46,045 bases of DNA from Chromobacterium piscinae (GTDB taxonomy: Bacteria; Pseudomonadota; Gammaproteobacteria; Burkholderiales; Chromobacteriaceae). The translations under genes and the position numbers were made by a program. Positions 27,175 to 32,124 of the stretch are shown here, in pieces; positions within the stretch are counted from its first letter, which is position 1, and each line of letters starts with the position of its first letter. The stretch lies in NCBI RefSeq assembly GCF_021129175.1, contig NZ_JAJOHV010000098.1, positions 1-46,045 on the forward strand, read 5' to 3'. The notes below the pieces were generated by a model that searched no databases, had not been told where the DNA came from, and saw only the letters and a list, made by a program, of their open reading frames with translations.

Positions 27175-28233
27175 ATGAACGCCTGCATAGACCTGCTTTG
27201 CCTGCCGAATTGCCTCAGCGGGACGCTGTTTTCCGCCATAGACGTGCTGCATGCGGCCAATAAACTGTGGCATCTTCACCACCCCAGGCGGAAAATGCCG
27301 CCGTTCAGCTGGCGGCTGCTCGACAGCGATGGCGCGGAGCAGCCTCTGCCCGCGTGGCTGCCCGCCTCTCCCGCCCGTCCGGCCGCCGCGCGCTGCGCGC
27401 TGCTGGTGCCCGGGCTGGACATGGACAGCGTGCCGCAACTGAAGCAGCAGCTGGATCGGGCCGACAAGGCGCTGCGGCTGATCGCCCTGCGCCATGCCGC
27501 TGGCGATGTCATCGCCACCAATTACAACGGCGCCGCGCTGCTGGCCCGCGCCGGCATCCTGGACGGCCGCAACGCCACCATCACCTGGCTGATCGCCGGC
27601 TGGTTCTCCAGCAGCCACCCAAGGGTGAAGCTGCTGATGGACCGGCCGGTCACTCAGGACGGCGGCGTGTTCTGCAGCGGCGCGCCGGCCGCGGCTACCG
27701 AGCTGGTGCTGGAACTGGTCCGCCATTTTGCCGGAGACGAACTGGCGCAGCGCTGTACCAACGGACTGTTGTACCTGCCGGCACGGTTCGAGCAATCGGC
27801 GCAGACGCTGTCCGCGTTGAGCACGCCCACCCGGGACAGCGTGGTGTTCAAGGCGCGGCGCTGGCTGGAACAACACGTGGCCGAGCCCTATAGCCTGGGC
27901 AGGGTGGCCGCCGCCGCCGCGGTCAGCAGCCGCACCTTGTTGCGCCATTTCCGCGAAGTGGCCGACATGACGCCGCTGGACTACCTGCAACAACTGCGGG
28001 TGGAGCGCGCCAAGCTGCTGCTGGAAGTCACCATGCTGGATCTGCCCGGCATCGTCGAGCAATGCGGCTACGACGACCCCTGCGCTTTTCGCCGCCTGTT
28101 CCGCCGCCAGACCGGGCTGACTCCCGCCGCCTATCGCCGCGCCTACGCGCTGCGGGCCTCGCGGCGCAGATGGCGTGCCGACGACGCGATGCCGCAGCCC
28201 GAGATCGGCCAACCCAGCCAGGTCCGCGCCTGA
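27175..28233 (+). CDS. GlxA family transcriptional regulator (DJ-1/PfpI-like plus AraC domain)
   Basis: A 352-residue regulator. The N-terminal half (about 1-190) is a class I amidotransferase/DJ-1-like fold: IDLLCLPNCLSGTLFSAIDV, ATNYNGAALLARAGILDGRN, and TQDGGVFCSGAPAAATELVL. The C-terminal half is an AraC/XylS pair of helix-turn-helix motifs: VAAAAAVSSRTLLRHFREVA, DMTPLDYLQQLRVERAKLLL and GYDDPCAFRRLFRRQTGLTP. GlxA-type proteins such as ArgR, GbdR and CdhR activate catabolism of amines or amino acids. It faces the amidohydrolase and outer-membrane genes, which it probably controls. No strong ribosome-binding site is visible. Confidence 0.9.
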   Translation: MNACIDLLCLPNCLSGTLFSAIDVLHAANKLWHLHHPRRKMPPFSWRLLDSDGAEQPLPAWLPASPARPAAARCALLVPGLDMDSVPQLKQQLDRADKALRLIALRHAAGDVIATNYNGAALLARAGILDGRNATITWLIAGWFSSSHPRVKLLMDRPVTQDGGVFCSGAPAAATELVLELVRHFAGDELAQRCTNGLLYLPARFEQSAQTLSALSTPTRDSVVFKARRWLEQHVAEPYSLGRVAAAAAVSSRTLLRHFREVADMTPLDYLQQLRVERAKLLLEVTMLDLPGIVEQCGYDDPCAFRRLFRRQTGLTPAAYRRAYALRASRRRWRADDAMPQPEIGQPSQVRA

Positions 28234-28279
28234 TCCATCGGAAAGCCCTGTGCCTATGGCTTCCCATGCCAGCCCATGA

Positions 28280-28795
28280 TCAAGGCGTCACGTGCATATA
28301 GGGCGTGGTGGTCAGCGTGGCCGAAATTGCGCAGCCGCCAGCCAAGGGCGCGGCCGACAGCGAAATCGCGGTCTCGCTGCCGCTATCGCCTATCTGCCCG
28401 CCGACCAGGCTCGGACCGCACTGTCCGCCCAGGATGGGGGTGTTGACGTTGACCATCACCTGGTCGATCGTCAGTTGGTTGAACGAGGTCACCTTGCCCA
28501 CCCATGGCGCGGCCGCCGTGGCGCTGGCCTTGATCATCCTGCACACCGGAATGCCCTTGAACGCGGCGCTGGTGATCAGGATGTTGCCGGCGCCGTCCAC
28601 CGTGCCGCTGAACACAGCGGTGCAGTCGACATCTACGCCCGACTTGCTGACCACCGCCGGTCCCACCGCGGAAAACGGGATCGCCGCCCCTCCCGCCCCC
28701 GGCGGCGTAATGGTCGCCGCGCCGGCGGAGGAACACACGCCCAAGGCCAGCGCGCACGCGCCAGCCGCCAGAATCCTGTTATGCATCTTGCTCAT
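28280..28795 (-). CDS. PraB-like secreted protein
   Basis: A 171-residue exported protein with an Ala-rich signal peptide (MSKMHNRILAAGACALALGV ending near SSAGAA). The mature part is rich in Ala, Gly, Thr and Val and lacks charge. VDCTAVFSGTVDGAG, FKGIPVCRMIKASA and GGQCGPSLVGGQ carry Cys residues and resemble the PraB/PraA group known in Pseudomonas as alkane oxidation activators. That group is a set of secreted, possibly surface-associated proteins. It is a single gene, convergent with the GlxA regulator. The start ATG is preferred to a TTG four codons earlier. Homology is recalled from pattern and not tested. Confidence 0.65.
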   Translation of the reverse strand: MSKMHNRILAAGACALALGVCSSAGAATITPPGAGGAAIPFSAVGPAVVSKSGVDVDCTAVFSGTVDGAGNILITSAAFKGIPVCRMIKASATAAAPWVGKVTSFNQLTIDQVMVNVNTPILGGQCGPSLVGGQIGDSGSETAISLSAAPLAGGCAISATLTTTPYMHVTP

Positions 28796-28952
28796 CGCGT
28801 AATCCAATCTTGTTTTGGTTTAAGACGCTGCCCGCCTCTGCGAACCGCCGCAACAGAATAAAATGACAAAAGCATTACACCCATTGATCAAGATCAGCCG
28901 CGCCGCGCCTCCGCCCGCGAGCCTGGTTCTAAGAATGGAAGCGGCGAATGGC

Positions 28953-28982
28953 TTGACATCCGGGCTGGACAATCGCCATGCT
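28953..28982 (+). promoter_or_regulatory. Possible promoter of the histidine-leader transcript
   Basis: A perfect TTGACA at 28953-28958 is followed after 18 bases by CATGCT (28977-28982, three of six -10 matches). The predicted start would be at or next to the leader ATG, giving an almost leaderless message. The same frame is open upstream to an ATG at 28863, so an earlier promoter is equally possible. Confidence 0.35.
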
Positions 28983-28988
28983 GCAGAC

Positions 28989-29078
28989 ATGAAAACCTTC
29001 CAATGCCATCGCCACCACCACGTTCTTACCAAGAGCGCGGTGCCGGTGCGCGCAGGCCTGGAGGGAAACGGAAGCTGA
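28989..29078 (+). CDS. Histidine-rich leader peptide of an attenuator
   Basis: A 29-codon ORF that begins MKTFQCHRHHHVLTKSAVPV. Four His codons occur among codons 7-11 (CAT CGC CAC CAC CAC). The peptide resembles his-operon leader peptides, though shorter in His. It lies upstream of competing hairpins, a rho-independent terminator and a HisRS-like gene, so it probably measures histidyl-tRNA supply by ribosome stalling. An 11-base segment at 29037-29047, 15 bases past the last His codon, can pair with the terminator. The ATG lacks a clear Shine-Dalgarno sequence and the same frame extends upstream to 28863, so the exact start is unsure. Confidence 0.65.
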   Translation: MKTFQCHRHHHVLTKSAVPVRAGLEGNGS

Positions 29079-29106
29079 TCCGCTCCACCCAATCAGCCCC
29101 GCACAG

Positions 29107-29130
29107 ACCGGCGCCGCAAGGCGCTTTTTT
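29107..29130 (+). terminator. Attenuator terminator with competing antiterminator
   Basis: The hairpin GCGCC-GCAA-GGCGC (29111-29124) is followed by six T residues, a good intrinsic terminator 42 bases before the HisRS-like ATG. Its 5' arm and flank (ACCGGCGCCGC, 29107-29117) can instead pair over 11 positions, one a G-U, with GCGGTGCCGGT at 29037-29047. A further hairpin at 29059-29087 (TGGAG/CTCCA plus CGGA/TCCG) contains the leader stop codon. Confidence 0.75.
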
Positions 29131-29171
29131 ATTTGCCGCGCGCTCCGCGCGAATTTTGAAAGGAAAGCATC

Positions 29172-29817
29172 ATGACCATGATCCGAGGCACCCGCATCGT
29201 CAGCGGCCGCGAGGCCACCGCTCTTCGCCAACTGGAGAGCCGTTTCCGGAGCTGGCTTCATTGACGCTGGCGCGGAAGAAACCATCCTGCCCGCCTTATG
29301 GGGGCAGGACACTTTCGTCGCCAAGGCCGGCGGCAGCGAAATACTCGGGCAGATGTGGGCTTTTCCGGACCGCAAAGGCCGCGCTTGCTGCCTGATACCG
29401 GAAGCCACCGCGCTGTTTCAGGAAAGAAACCAGATGTTTTTGAACGGCAGGCGCGAGGCCGGATTTTTCTATGCCGCGCGCTGCTATCGCTACGAGCGGC
29501 CGCAAGCCGGCCGCTATCGGGAATTCACCCAACTGGGCTATGAGTATCTGGGGCCTGATCCCGCCGCTGCGCGTGAGCGCAGCCTGGCGCTGTGCCGCGG
29601 CTTTCTGGACAGCCTGGGTCTGCGCTACGAGCTGGGCGGCATGGCCAGGCGCGGGCTCAGCTACTATCTGGGCGGGGAAGGCTTCGAGATGCGCGCGCCG
29701 GAGCTGGGCGCGCAGAAACAGCTAGCAGGCGGCGGCGCCTATCGGGAAGGTGCCGGTTTCGGCATTGGACTGGAAAGGCTGGCGCTCGCGCTGGAAGCGC
29801 AAGGCATACAGCCCTAA
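29172..29817 (+). CDS. Compact histidyl-tRNA synthetase-like protein, reading frame interrupted
   Basis: Two joined frames give about 214 residues. The first starts at ATG 29172 after GAAAGGA and reads MTMIRGTRIVSG through LRQLESRFRSWLH to a TGA at 29262-29264. The second, +1, continues IDAGAEETILPALWGQDTF and keeps all class II landmarks: motif 1 region, MWAFPDRKGRACCLIPEATA, motif 2 YRYERPQAGRYREFTQLGYE, the HisA-like RRGLSYYLGGEGFE and motif 3 GAGFGIGLERLALAL. No insertion domain and no anticodon-binding domain are present, so it is roughly half of normal HisRS. It may be a HisZ-like regulator or a free aminoacylating core. The frame break could be mutation, error or programmed shift. A strong terminator follows. 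Confidence 0.72.
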
Positions 29818-29827
29818 TGGCATGAAA

Positions 29828-29851
29828 AAGGCCGGGCGCATGCCCGGCCTT
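29828..29851. terminator. Bidirectional terminator between HisRS-like gene and tldD
   Basis: A perfect 10-bp stem, AAGGCCGGGC with GCCCGGCCTT, has the four-base loop GCAT. It lies between two convergent genes, 11 bases from each stop codon, with A-rich sequence on its left side. Confidence 0.85.
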
Positions 29852-29862
29852 GGCAAGCATGA

Positions 29863-31305
29863 TCAGCCGCCGGTGCCGCCCACGGTCAGGCCGCCGTCTA
29901 TGCGCAGCGTGGGTTGGCCGACGCCCACCGGCACGCTCTGGCCTTCCTTGCCGCACACGCCCACCCCCTGGTCCAGCGCCAGATCGTTGCCTATCATCGA
30001 CACGTAGTTCAATACCTCGGGGCCGCTGCCGATCAGCGTGGCGCCCTTGACCGGGTAGGTCAGCTTGCCGCTCTCGATGCGCCAAGCCTCCGACGCCGAG
30101 AACACGAACTTGCCGCTGGTAATGTCCACCTGTCCGCCGCCGAAATTCACCGCGTACAGGCCATCCTTGACCGAAGCGATGATTTCCTGCGGATCGCGCT
30201 CTCCGGCCAGCATATAGGTGTTGGTCATCCGCGGCATCGGGATGCTGGCGTACGACTCGCGGCGGCCGTTGCCGGTGGGCGCCACCTGCATCAGCCGCGA
30301 GTTCATCGCATCCTGCATATAGCCCTTGAGAATGCCATCCTCGATCAGCACGGTGCGCTGAGTGGCGTTGCCCTCGTCGTCGATGGCCAGCGCGCCGCGG
30401 CGGCCGCCCATCACGCCGTCGTCCACCACCGTCACGCCCGGCGCGGCCACGCGTTCGCCCATCTTGCCGGAGAACGCCGAAGTGCCCTTGCGATTGAAAT
30501 CGCCCTCCAACCCGTGGCCGATCGCCTCGTGCAGCAGCACGCCCGGCCAGCCCGGCCCCAGCACCACGGTCATCTGGCCGGCCGGCGCCGGGCGGGAATC
30601 CAGGTTCACCAGCGCCTGCTTGACCGCCTCGCGCACGTAGCGCTCCACCACGGCGTCGTCGAAATAGGCCAGATCGAAGCGTCCGCCGCCGCCGGCCGAG
30701 CCCTGCTCGCGGCGGCCGTTCTGTTCGGCGATCACCGACACCGACATCCGCACCAGCGGCCGCACGTCGGCGGCCCTCACGCCGTCATGGCGCGCGACGT
30801 AGACCACGTCGTACTCCATCGCCAGGCCGGCCATCACCTGGATCACGCGCGGGTCGATCGCCTTGGCCAGCTTTTCCACTTTTTCCAGCAGCGCCACCTT
30901 GGCGGCTGCCTCCAGGCTGTGACAGGGGTCGATGGACGGATACAGCGACTTCGGCTTGCGCTTTTCCACCGCGCCGGCGCTGCCGTCGCCGCCGGCGTTG
31001 CCGATCGCGCGCACCGCCTCGGCCGCGCGGGTGAGCGCGTCCTGGTTGATCGCGTCGGAATAGGCGAAGGCGGTCTTGTCCCCGGCGACGGCGCGCACGC
31101 CGACGCCCTGGTCGATGCTGAAGCTGCCGGACTTGACGATGCCCTCCTCCAGGTGCCAGCCCTCGTTGCGGGTGTACTGAAAGTAAAGATCGGCGTAGTC
31201 GATGGCATGGTGGCGCATGTGCGCCAGCGTGCGCTCCAGCGCGGCCTCGTCCAGGCCATAGGGTTTGAGCAGCAGTTCGTCTGCGGCGGTGAAGGCGTCT
31301 TGCAT
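29863..31305 (-). CDS. tldD: Metalloprotease TldD
   Basis: A 480-residue subunit of the TldD/TldE (PmbA) protease, which works on unfolded small peptides and helps mature microcin B17 and control CcdA in enterobacteria. The zinc motif HEAIGHGLEGD is visible (His259, Glu260, His264), and GKMGERVAAPGVTVVDDGVM and YMQDAMNSRLMQVAPTGNGR follow. The third ligand is in the C-terminal part. Its partner PmbA/TldE is not in the window. The gene lies 9 bases after the nit gene, in the common betaproteobacterial order yhdP-nit-tldD. Confidence 0.96.
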   Translation of the reverse strand: MQDAFTAADELLLKPYGLDEAALERTLAHMRHHAIDYADLYFQYTRNEGWHLEEGIVKSGSFSIDQGVGVRAVAGDKTAFAYSDAINQDALTRAAEAVRAIGNAGGDGSAGAVEKRKPKSLYPSIDPCHSLEAAAKVALLEKVEKLAKAIDPRVIQVMAGLAMEYDVVYVARHDGVRAADVRPLVRMSVSVIAEQNGRREQGSAGGGGRFDLAYFDDAVVERYVREAVKQALVNLDSRPAPAGQMTVVLGPGWPGVLLHEAIGHGLEGDFNRKGTSAFSGKMGERVAAPGVTVVDDGVMGGRRGALAIDDEGNATQRTVLIEDGILKGYMQDAMNSRLMQVAPTGNGRRESYASIPMPRMTNTYMLAGERDPQEIIASVKDGLYAVNFGGGQVDITSGKFVFSASEAWRIESGKLTYPVKGATLIGSGPEVLNYVSMIGNDLALDQGVGVCGKEGQSVPVGVGQPTLRIDGGLTVGGTGG

Positions 31306-31314
31306 ATCGTTCTT

Positions 31315-32124
31315 TCAGCGTATGGCCCGGTGCGCCAGAGCCGGCAGGCGGCCCCGCACCGAGTGTATCAATTCGGGATCGATCTCGGCGGTGACTACGC
31401 CCTCGCCGTCCGGCAGCTCGGCGAGGATGCGCCCCCACGGGTCGATGATCATCGAGTGGCCGTGCGTCCGCCGGCCGTTTTCATGCGTTCCGCCCTGGGC
31501 GGAGGCGATCAGGTAACACTGGTTTTCTATCGCGCGGGCCCGCAGCAGCGGCTCCCAGTGCGCTTCGCCGGTGGTGGCGGTGAACGCCGCCGGCAGGATC
31601 AGCAGGTCGAACGGCGCCAGCATCCTGAACAGCTCCGGGAAGCGCAGGTCGTAACAGATGCCGAAGGCGATGTCCGCCAGCGGCGTCTCCGCCTTGATCG
31701 GCGTCGCGCCCGGACGTATGGTGTTGGACTCGCAGTAGCTCTCGCCCTGGCCGGTGAAGCCGAACAGGTGGATCTTGTCGTAGCGCGCCGCCGCCTCTCC
31801 CTGCGGATTGTAGAGCAGGCTGCTGTTGAGCACCTTGCCCTCTTCCTCGCAAAGCAGCGGCACGGTGCCGCCCAGCAGCCACAAACCGTGGCGGCGCGCC
31901 ATTTCCGACAGCGCCTGCTGGATGGGACCGTTGCCGAACGCTTCGCGCACAGCCACCTTGTCGGTTTCCTTGGCGCCCATCAGGCAAAAATACTCAGGCA
32001 GCACCGCCAGGCTGGCGCCGCGGGCGGCGGCTTCGGCCAGCAATTGGTCGGCGCGCGCCAGATTGGCTTCCAGGCCGCAGCCGGACACCATCTGCACGGC
32101 GGCGGCGACGAACTTCTGCTTCAT
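31315..32124 (-). CDS. Carbon-nitrogen hydrolase, Nit1/Nit2-type (deaminated glutathione amidase-like)
   Basis: A 269-residue nitrilase-superfamily amidase. The catalytic triad is visible as Glu44 (LPEYF), Lys117 (YDKIHLFGF) and Cys157 (GICYDLRFPELFR). The lengths and the motif CYDLRFPELFR are typical of the Nit1/YafV branch, which hydrolyses deaminated glutathione or omega-amides. The start overlaps the yhdP stop by four bases. It is cytoplasmic, with no signal peptide. The function as a metabolite-repair amidase is inferred from family. Confidence 0.9.
   Translation of the reverse strand: MKQKFVAAAVQMVSGCGLEANLARADQLLAEAAARGASLAVLPEYFCLMGAKETDKVAVREAFGNGPIQQALSEMARRHGLWLLGGTVPLLCEEEGKVLNSSLLYNPQGEAAARYDKIHLFGFTGQGESYCESNTIRPGATPIKAETPLADIAFGICYDLRFPELFRMLAPFDLLILPAAFTATTGEAHWEPLLRARAIENQCYLIASAQGGTHENGRRTHGHSMIIDPWGRILAELPDGEGVVTAEIDPELIHSVRGRLPALAHRAIR

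Follow-up and report, generated by a model that had tools for sequence, protein, structure and literature searches.

A gene for a compact protein similar to histidyl-tRNA synthetase (HisRS) in Chromobacterium piscinae begins in one reading frame and continues in another, and the change of frame coincides with a CTT codon that is followed by a histidine codon in every relative of its subfamily that we compared. We think it probable that this gene carries a histidine-starvation switch, in which a transcription attenuator and a programmed +1 frameshift would act in series on the HisRS-like enzyme. The original prediction, made on the window (the whole stretch of DNA analysed, 46,045 nucleotides), concerned the attenuator and had missed that the start and the body of the gene lie in different frames. 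We regard the conserved +1 frameshift with a histidine codon in the A site as the stronger novelty of the two.

The frame break and its conservation

The ATG at 29172 reads 30 codons to the TGA at 29264, and the protein goes on in the +1 frame from 29257, in a frame that is closed upstream by a stop. The features of this part of the window are as follows.

29160..29164, + strand: Shine-Dalgarno (SD) sequence AAGGA of the HisRS-like gene (by eye)
29172..29264, + strand: zero-frame ORF, the N-terminus of the enzyme, reading MTMIRGTRIVSGREATALRQLESRFRSWLH and then a stop (ORF; conserved frame-0 coding signal)
29247..29252, + strand: SD-like candidate frameshift stimulator CGGAGC (relatives, codon entropy, prfB spacing)
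29256..29258, + strand: putative slip codon CTT (Leu, P site), with +1 re-pairing on TTC (84 of 84 loci)
29259..29261, + strand: A-site His codon CAT (CAT in 79 and CAC in 5 of the 84 loci)
29262..29264, + strand: zero-frame stop TGA (stop at once or after four codons in 83 of 84 loci)
29257..29817, + strand: +1-frame body of the HisRS-like enzyme (protein comparisons; fused product of 214 aa)

The same frame break is found in the window copy and in the first ten relatives aligned. For the wider comparison, 84,980 species, each represented by a single genome, were scanned (132 stretches, from which the best 80 of 88 relatives were taken); two peptides of the frameshifted subfamily served as anchors, and it is that subfamily which a count of 84 of 84 describes. 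This peptide-anchored scan supplied 80 of the 85 loci first collected. The other five are L001, L004, L005, L008 and L011, and six more (L002, L003, L006, L007, L009 and L010) were taken as duplicates of L031-L036. One locus (L104) was dropped, being cut at a contig end with the slip site lost, for a total of 84. The loci are related, and counts over them are not independent.

An SD-like motif, three bases of any kind, CTT and CAY are common to all 84 loci, which span Chromobacterium, Pseudomonas, Burkholderiales and two MAGs labelled Myxococcota. The hexamer before the three bases is CGGAGC in 70 loci, CGGAGT in 5, AGGAGC in 4, CGGAGG in 2, and CGGGGC, CGGGGT and CGGGAC in 1 each. CAY is followed by CGA in 36 loci, TGA in 35, TAA in 7, CAA in 2, and CGC, CGG, GGA and CGT in 1 each, and because a sense codon thus follows CAY in 42 of the 84 loci, the constant feature is the histidine codon and not a stop. 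The Y of CAY is partly explained by the protein, since the same base is the second of the +1 Ile/Thr codon.

The zero-frame stop is immediate in 42 loci and comes after exactly four codons in 41, the sole exception being L109, where the zero frame runs for 25 codons. The later stop is carried by 41 of the 42 loci that have no immediate stop, versus 3 of the 42 that have one (Fisher p 6e-19, a value inflated by shared ancestry). Because all loci except one keep a stop in one or the other of these two ways, zero-frame termination seems to be kept as an off state.

The prfB site of the same genome reads ATTCGGGGGTATCTTTGAC and the site of the HisRS-like gene reads TTCCGGAGCTGGCTTCATTGAC, and in each the distance between the first G and CTT is eight bases. 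Two other places in this genome where CGGAGCNNNCTTCAY occurs (C28 and C94) showed, by eye, no similar gene in their translations. A decayed copy with an early stop (L012, in genome G015) still shows CTTCATTGA.

Coding signal is present on both sides of the junction, in different frames. Up to the slip site, third-position variation tracks frame 0, and beyond the site it tracks the +1 frame; in 12 sampled loci the likeness of the upstream peptide between groups is 62-64% in frame 0 versus 37-43% in the +1 reading. Codon entropy was calculated over 81 full-length loci (L106, L107 and L109 were dropped as short) for the 61 columns in which the residue is at least 95% conserved and the codons are at least fourfold degenerate. 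CTT is the only column of the 61 with zero entropy (81 of 81 loci), the Arg codon of the SD-like motif has the second-lowest value (0.28; CGG in 77, AGG in 4), and the remaining columns have entropies of at least 0.997, with a median of 1.69. Over the 84 loci, the invariant bases are the GG of the SD-like motif and CTTCA. A pseudogene or a sequencing error was considered as the source of the break and rejected, given that all of the loci show the same break in separate records, that the protein is highly conserved and that the wobble positions follow both frames.

A compact HisRS-like product

With CTTC read as one residue, the fused product is 214 aa long (P0003). The body from 29257 is HisRS-like by itself (Pfam PF13393, 1e-10; hisS TIGR00442, 3.6e-27; solved HisRS chains matched), and fusing it to the zero-frame N-terminus raises the hisS score from 95.4 to 108.4 bits (+13 bits). 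This best match to hisS lies below the cut-off of 286.75, and the next, to HisZ (TIGR00443), has 51.1 bits against a cut-off of 271.65. The fused protein aligns with solved HisRS with no gap at the junction (1adj, 1qe0 and 1kmm among the matches listed). Four relatives (L112, L113, L119 and L122) are naturally in frame and encode the same N-terminus and the body as a single reading frame; L113 is 41% identical to the fused protein of the window, and L122 sits on a Pseudomonas silesiensis plasmid. Because of the frame-specific conservation and the gap-free collinearity with HisRS, we take a functional protein to span both frames, judging by sequence only.

The product shares the class II catalytic core with HisRS and HisZ. 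Across 17 aligned sequences there is no variation at E77, R106, Q120, E124, R160, Y164/Y165 and R202 (numbering of P0003), and we take these residues to be the HisRS histidine and ATP ligands. The protein differs from HisRS and HisZ in its small size, in its near lack of histidine and in the parts that are missing, which are presumably the anticodon-binding domain and the insertion domain of HisRS; the loop before motif 3 is short in the alignment. Because the prfB product decodes its own waiting codon, we propose by analogy that the product here supplies charged tRNA-His, most likely by raising the histidylation of tRNA-His, although this is a guess. HisRS charges minihelices with G-1:C73, and the anticodon also matters in vivo (PMC9976931). 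Since such minihelices are charged, activity of a core alone on tRNA-His is conceivable, and we would guess that a catalytic core could work on it without the anticodon domain.

The fused protein is free of histidine in 74 of 81 loci, and its first 205 residues are so in 76 of 81. Over these 205 residues the histidine content is 0.04%, versus 2.78% in 178 long neighbour ORFs of the same loci, and of 236 control windows with the same length only 4 are without histidine. The full HisRS of the same genome has 7 histidines in its first 325 residues, two other HisRS have 7 and 8, and the in-frame relatives have 0 to 2 each. Enzymes needed in starvation tend to avoid the limiting amino acid. Amino-acid bias of such a starvation-related kind is the subject of an earlier paper (PMC4209129).

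In a tree of 41 rows (35 of the 84 frameshifted loci, the 4 in-frame relatives and 2 HisRS), the frameshifted rows group together (96/97), as do the in-frame rows (93/82), and HisRS lies outside these groups. The two MAGs labelled Myxococcota fall inside the frameshifted group, which is a single clade and may have arisen once. Within the genus, 11 of 19 genomes match at E 1e-20, one of these (G015) in decayed pieces, and 8 of 19 have no match; G009 has kept fragments of the gene. Among 369 genomes of the class, only the genome of the window, G299 and G361 match at 1e-30, and the last two are in-frame. Relatives are carried by four of 72,556 plasmid records. By eye, no gene neighbour is shared among 17 of the 84 loci, and for this reason the neighbourhood gives no clue to function. 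Patchy spread, copies on plasmids and the lack of a shared neighbour would fit horizontal movement.

Some further observations concern annotation and the surrounding sequence. The public annotation of two plasmid copies (L120:2447-3058 and L121:2447-3058) starts in the +1 frame, omits the conserved frame-0 N-terminus and gives the product the name ATP phosphoribosyltransferase regulatory subunit. In the window, 28280-28807 on the - strand matches the PraB and PraA alkane-oxidation activator models at 67.5 and 65 bits, below their cut-offs. A GC-rich inverted repeat at 29829-29851 (by eye) separates the HisRS-like gene from the convergent tldD, and is perhaps a shared terminator.

The histidine leader and its proposed attenuator

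The original prediction had read the region upstream of the gene as a histidine attenuator, and its parts were recovered at the following positions.

28989..29078, + strand: leader peptide ORF, reading MKTFQCHRHHHVLTKSAVPVRAGLEGNGS and then a stop
29007..29021, + strand: element 1, His codons, four of five codons (sequence reading, fold of 28989-29062)
29037..29047, + strand: element 2, antiterminator 5' strand (sequence reading, folding)
29107..29117, + strand: element 3, antiterminator 3' strand, overlapping the terminator 5' arm (sequence reading, folding)
29110..29130, + strand: intrinsic terminator hairpin and T run (terminator scan; relatives)

The predicted run of four His codons in five is present as CAT at 29007 and CAC at 29013, 29016 and 29019. 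The pairing that had been described also holds, in that GCGGTGCCGGT (29037-29047), which begins 15 bases past the last leader His codon, is complementary to ACCGGCGCCGC (29107-29117) at 11 positions, one of them a G-U. A terminator was said to overlap this element, and both the scan and folding agree, with the scan placing the stem at 29110-29125 and a T run reaching 29130. Folding of the window sequence is also in keeping with the predicted choice between structures. The region that a ribosome stalled on the His codons would leave exposed (29034-29135), folded alone, forms the 11-bp antiterminator and no terminator, at -44.2 kcal/mol, and of the two structures only the terminator forms in the downstream regions 29079-29135 and 29091-29135. 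The proposed pairing of the His codons with element 2 is seen in the fold of 28989-29062, where 29010-29027, a segment with most of the His codons in it, pairs with 29031-29052 as the 1:2 pairing.

Within the window alone these structures are not statistically striking. The terminator scan of 28000-31500 gives 2 terminator-like sites versus a shuffle mean of 2.2, and because shuffles give equally many sites the hairpin alone is not significant; compared with dinucleotide shuffles, 29034-29135 has a fold energy that stands out only weakly (z -1.76). Rfam gives zero matches at the gathering threshold across the window, and in 28930-29280, up to E 10, five chance-level matches with no His leader among them. 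The attenuator of the window is more than chance because it is conserved among relatives. A His-rich leader (at least 3 His in 7 codons) is found in 80 of the 84 loci, a terminator before the gene likewise in 80, and the two in order, leader and then terminator, in 77, which include Chromobacterium, Pseudomonas, Paraburkholderia/Burkholderia and Andreprevotia. The same ordered arrangement occurs at 2 of 4133 random points in these loci and at 1 of 277 ATGs of their other ORFs of at least 200 aa. The His codons and paired segments have therefore mostly not been lost from relatives that keep the gene.

The seven exceptions are varied. L107 has a run of N, L058 and L092 have a terminator and not enough His codons, L091 combines five His with the lack of a terminator, L108 and L110 (the MAGs) have His leaders and no T-run terminator, and L008 has a transposase-like ORF (by eye) in place of the leader. 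This ORF comes to an end roughly 130 bases before the slip site, no His leader is left, and the attenuator of this locus has probably been severed by an insertion. The leaders in the two MAGs labelled Myxococcota are tiny (MTRSVMHHHL and MHSLHHHD, each followed by a stop), and they may act via another route. Among the more distant in-frame relatives, a His leader and terminator are present in L113 and L122 (2 of 4) and are not visible in L112 and L119. The terminator arms in the former two are GCCCTCC..GGAGGGC or GCCCTC..GAGGGC, and neither locus has a frameshift. Because these in-frame relatives also have a His leader and terminator, the attenuator may predate the frameshift.

Covariation of the paired segments had been suggested as a further check. 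We compared native 2:3 duplexes with duplexes swapped between groups, the groups being a rough nearest-protein assignment, for 77 loci (the 7 of 84 without an ordered leader and terminator were excluded). The native duplex is better than the swapped one in Chromobacterium (-25.3 vs -20.2, 10 loci), in the Burkholderiales group (-22.7 vs -18.2, 24 loci) and in the Andreprevotia group (-22.4 vs -18.1, 4 loci), and worse in Pseudomonas (-19.9 vs -21.5, 39 loci). Overall, native is better in 43 of 77 loci, which is no signal of coevolution in this test. When element 2 is compared with its mononucleotide shuffles for binding to element 3, the mean z is -2.38, with z < -2 in 50 of the 77. Taken together, the reading of the region upstream of the HisRS-like gene as a putative histidine attenuator is supported. 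The original prediction knew of no described attenuator on a compact synthetase paralogue in this group. His leaders on paralogues of the HisRS family are not wholly new, as Naville and Gautheret in 2010 reported one in bacilli that precedes hisZ and a hisS paralogue (PMC2965389).

The scan of 28000-31500 found no full promoter. TTGACA stands at 28953-28958, about 30 bases before the leader ATG, and is kept in most of 11 aligned loci; there is no clear SD before the leader ATG. Given these observations, leader translation may begin at or adjoining the transcript start. In six relatives searched against Rfam, the sole match is a C4 antisense RNA (RF01695) at L043:4413-4499 on the - strand (82.9 bits).

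A proposed histidine switch, its alternatives and its precedents

In the switch that we propose, a scarcity of charged tRNA-His would stall the ribosome in the His-rich leader, and this stall would let element 2 pair with element 3, so that the terminator would be blocked and transcription would continue. A ribosome translating the resulting message would come to GGAG..CTT-CAT with CTT in the P site and CAT waiting in the A site. If His-tRNA were scarce, the empty A site together with the upstream SD-like pairing would cause peptidyl-tRNA-Leu to slip from CTT to TTC, and this +1 slip would give the full 214-aa protein. With His-tRNA plentiful, CAT would be read and translation would stop immediately (in other species, often four codons later), leaving a zero-frame peptide of about 30-34 aa. 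Both sensors would respond in the same direction to a shortage of charged tRNA-His, and a product that raised tRNA-His histidylation would close the loop as in prfB. We expect tRNA-His scarcity to promote the shift because the waiting codon is CAU, in parallel with the slow termination at UGA in prfB. Re-pairing from CUU to UUC needs a first-position G-U pair, as in prfB, +1 shifts are favoured by slow A-site decoding, and of the shift codons at the prfB site CUU works most efficiently (PMC5009743). The frameshift rate without starvation might be high. That slippage occurs, that it depends on His-tRNA and what the enzyme does are inferred from sequence comparison.

Other explanations would dispense with some part of this switch. 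Were the attenuator the only control, the enzyme would start at a non-ATG codon in the +1 frame as annotated, with no frameshift; the annotation of the two plasmid copies puts this start 54 nt before the slip site, and 40 of the 84 loci have a GTG, a TTG or (in one locus) an ATG in the open +1 frame. However, the other 44 loci, including that of the window, have none of these codons in that frame upstream of the site. The upstream coding signal lies in frame 0, the CTT and SD-like codons are frozen, and it is through frame 0 that the N-terminus matches HisRS and the in-frame relatives, all of which makes +1 initiation very improbable. We give almost no credence to the idea of two chains, with a short frame-0 ORF and reinitiation at ATT or ATC by the stop. 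GGAG could serve there as the SD, ending 8 nt before the ATT at 29260, but the would-be start varies (ATT 39, ATC 38, ACT 2 and ACC 2 among 81), the frozen CTT is left unexplained, and HisRS and the in-frame relatives have one continuous chain across this stretch.

A constitutive +1 frameshift, in which the His codon would just be slow and the attenuator alone would sense histidine, is an unlikely reading, even though CUU sites shift well with a slow A-site codon, as in the Ty1 site CUU_AGG_C at about 40% (PMC5009743). It sits poorly with the constant A-site His codon in a gene that is nearly His-free and mostly stands behind a His leader, and also with the zero-frame stop kept by two routes, which suggests termination as the off state. 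It is scarcely credible that the site senses release factor 2 (RF2) like prfB, through the TGA after CAT: TGA directly follows CAY in the locus of the window and in 34 others, and TAA in 7, but a sense codon stands there in half of the loci, and re-pairing of tRNA-His from CAU to AUU is poor under established pairing rules. We therefore retain the attenuator and the histidine-sensing frameshift in series as the preferred reading.

The proposed frameshift resembles that of prfB in the SD-like element at the same spacing and the CUU slip codon (PMC5009743, PMC3711429), and further in the short N-terminal frame-0 ORF, the +1-frame body and an autoregulatory logic, which here is proposed. It differs in that CAU or CAC stands in the A site instead of a stop in all loci, in that the product is HisRS-like and not RF2, and in that the stop follows at once or after four codons. 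The prfB site was reportedly used by Curran and Yarus to clock aminoacyl-tRNA selection at sense codons. Attenuators of the hisL type likewise have a His-rich leader ORF, a terminator before the gene and alternative 1:2, 2:3 and 3:4 pairing, which is predicted here, whereas in the present case a compact HisRS-like gene lies downstream and a second, His-codon checkpoint would follow. Hungry-codon +1 frameshifting (Gallant; in the laboratory) and the Ty1, ABP140 and EST3 sites likewise combine a P-site CUU with a slow A-site codon (PMC5009743); in contrast, the present site is conserved and lies in a bacterial gene for which the enzyme family and the leader both correspond to the amino acid that the waiting codon encodes.

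A 2016 review states that hungry-codon frameshifting could yield starvation-specific trans-frame proteins and that no example is known (PMC5009743). In a table of a 2022 review only HisZ appears beside HisRS, and the word frameshift does not occur in that review (PMC9437257). According to the PRFect paper, every CUU-stop site in RECODE belongs to prfB (PMC10885494). The GeneTack table includes, under the mark PV, 215 genes in a +1 'tRNA synthetase' cluster that may contain this family (PMC3711429). Searches of an open-access library gave no report of this HisRS-like frameshift gene among the titles and abstract openings listed. We lean towards regarding it as the first natural programmed frameshift that senses an aminoacyl-tRNA, that is, a prfB device with histidine in place of the stop, serving a His-free emergency HisRS through a gate that requires both attenuator and frameshift.

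Many species in Pseudomonas, Burkholderiales and Chromobacterium carry the family, and the frameshift site occurs in Pseudomonadota and in the two MAGs labelled Myxococcota. If the proposal is true, this gene family would be an example of hungry-codon frameshifting used for a starvation-specific protein, and it would account for the +1-frame start and the HisZ name of the copies in public annotation. It would also point to an unrecognised compact and nearly histidine-free HisRS-like enzyme, whose attenuator and frameshift would form an AND gate on one metabolite, and it would imply that frameshifting can serve as a metabolite sensor in bacteria.
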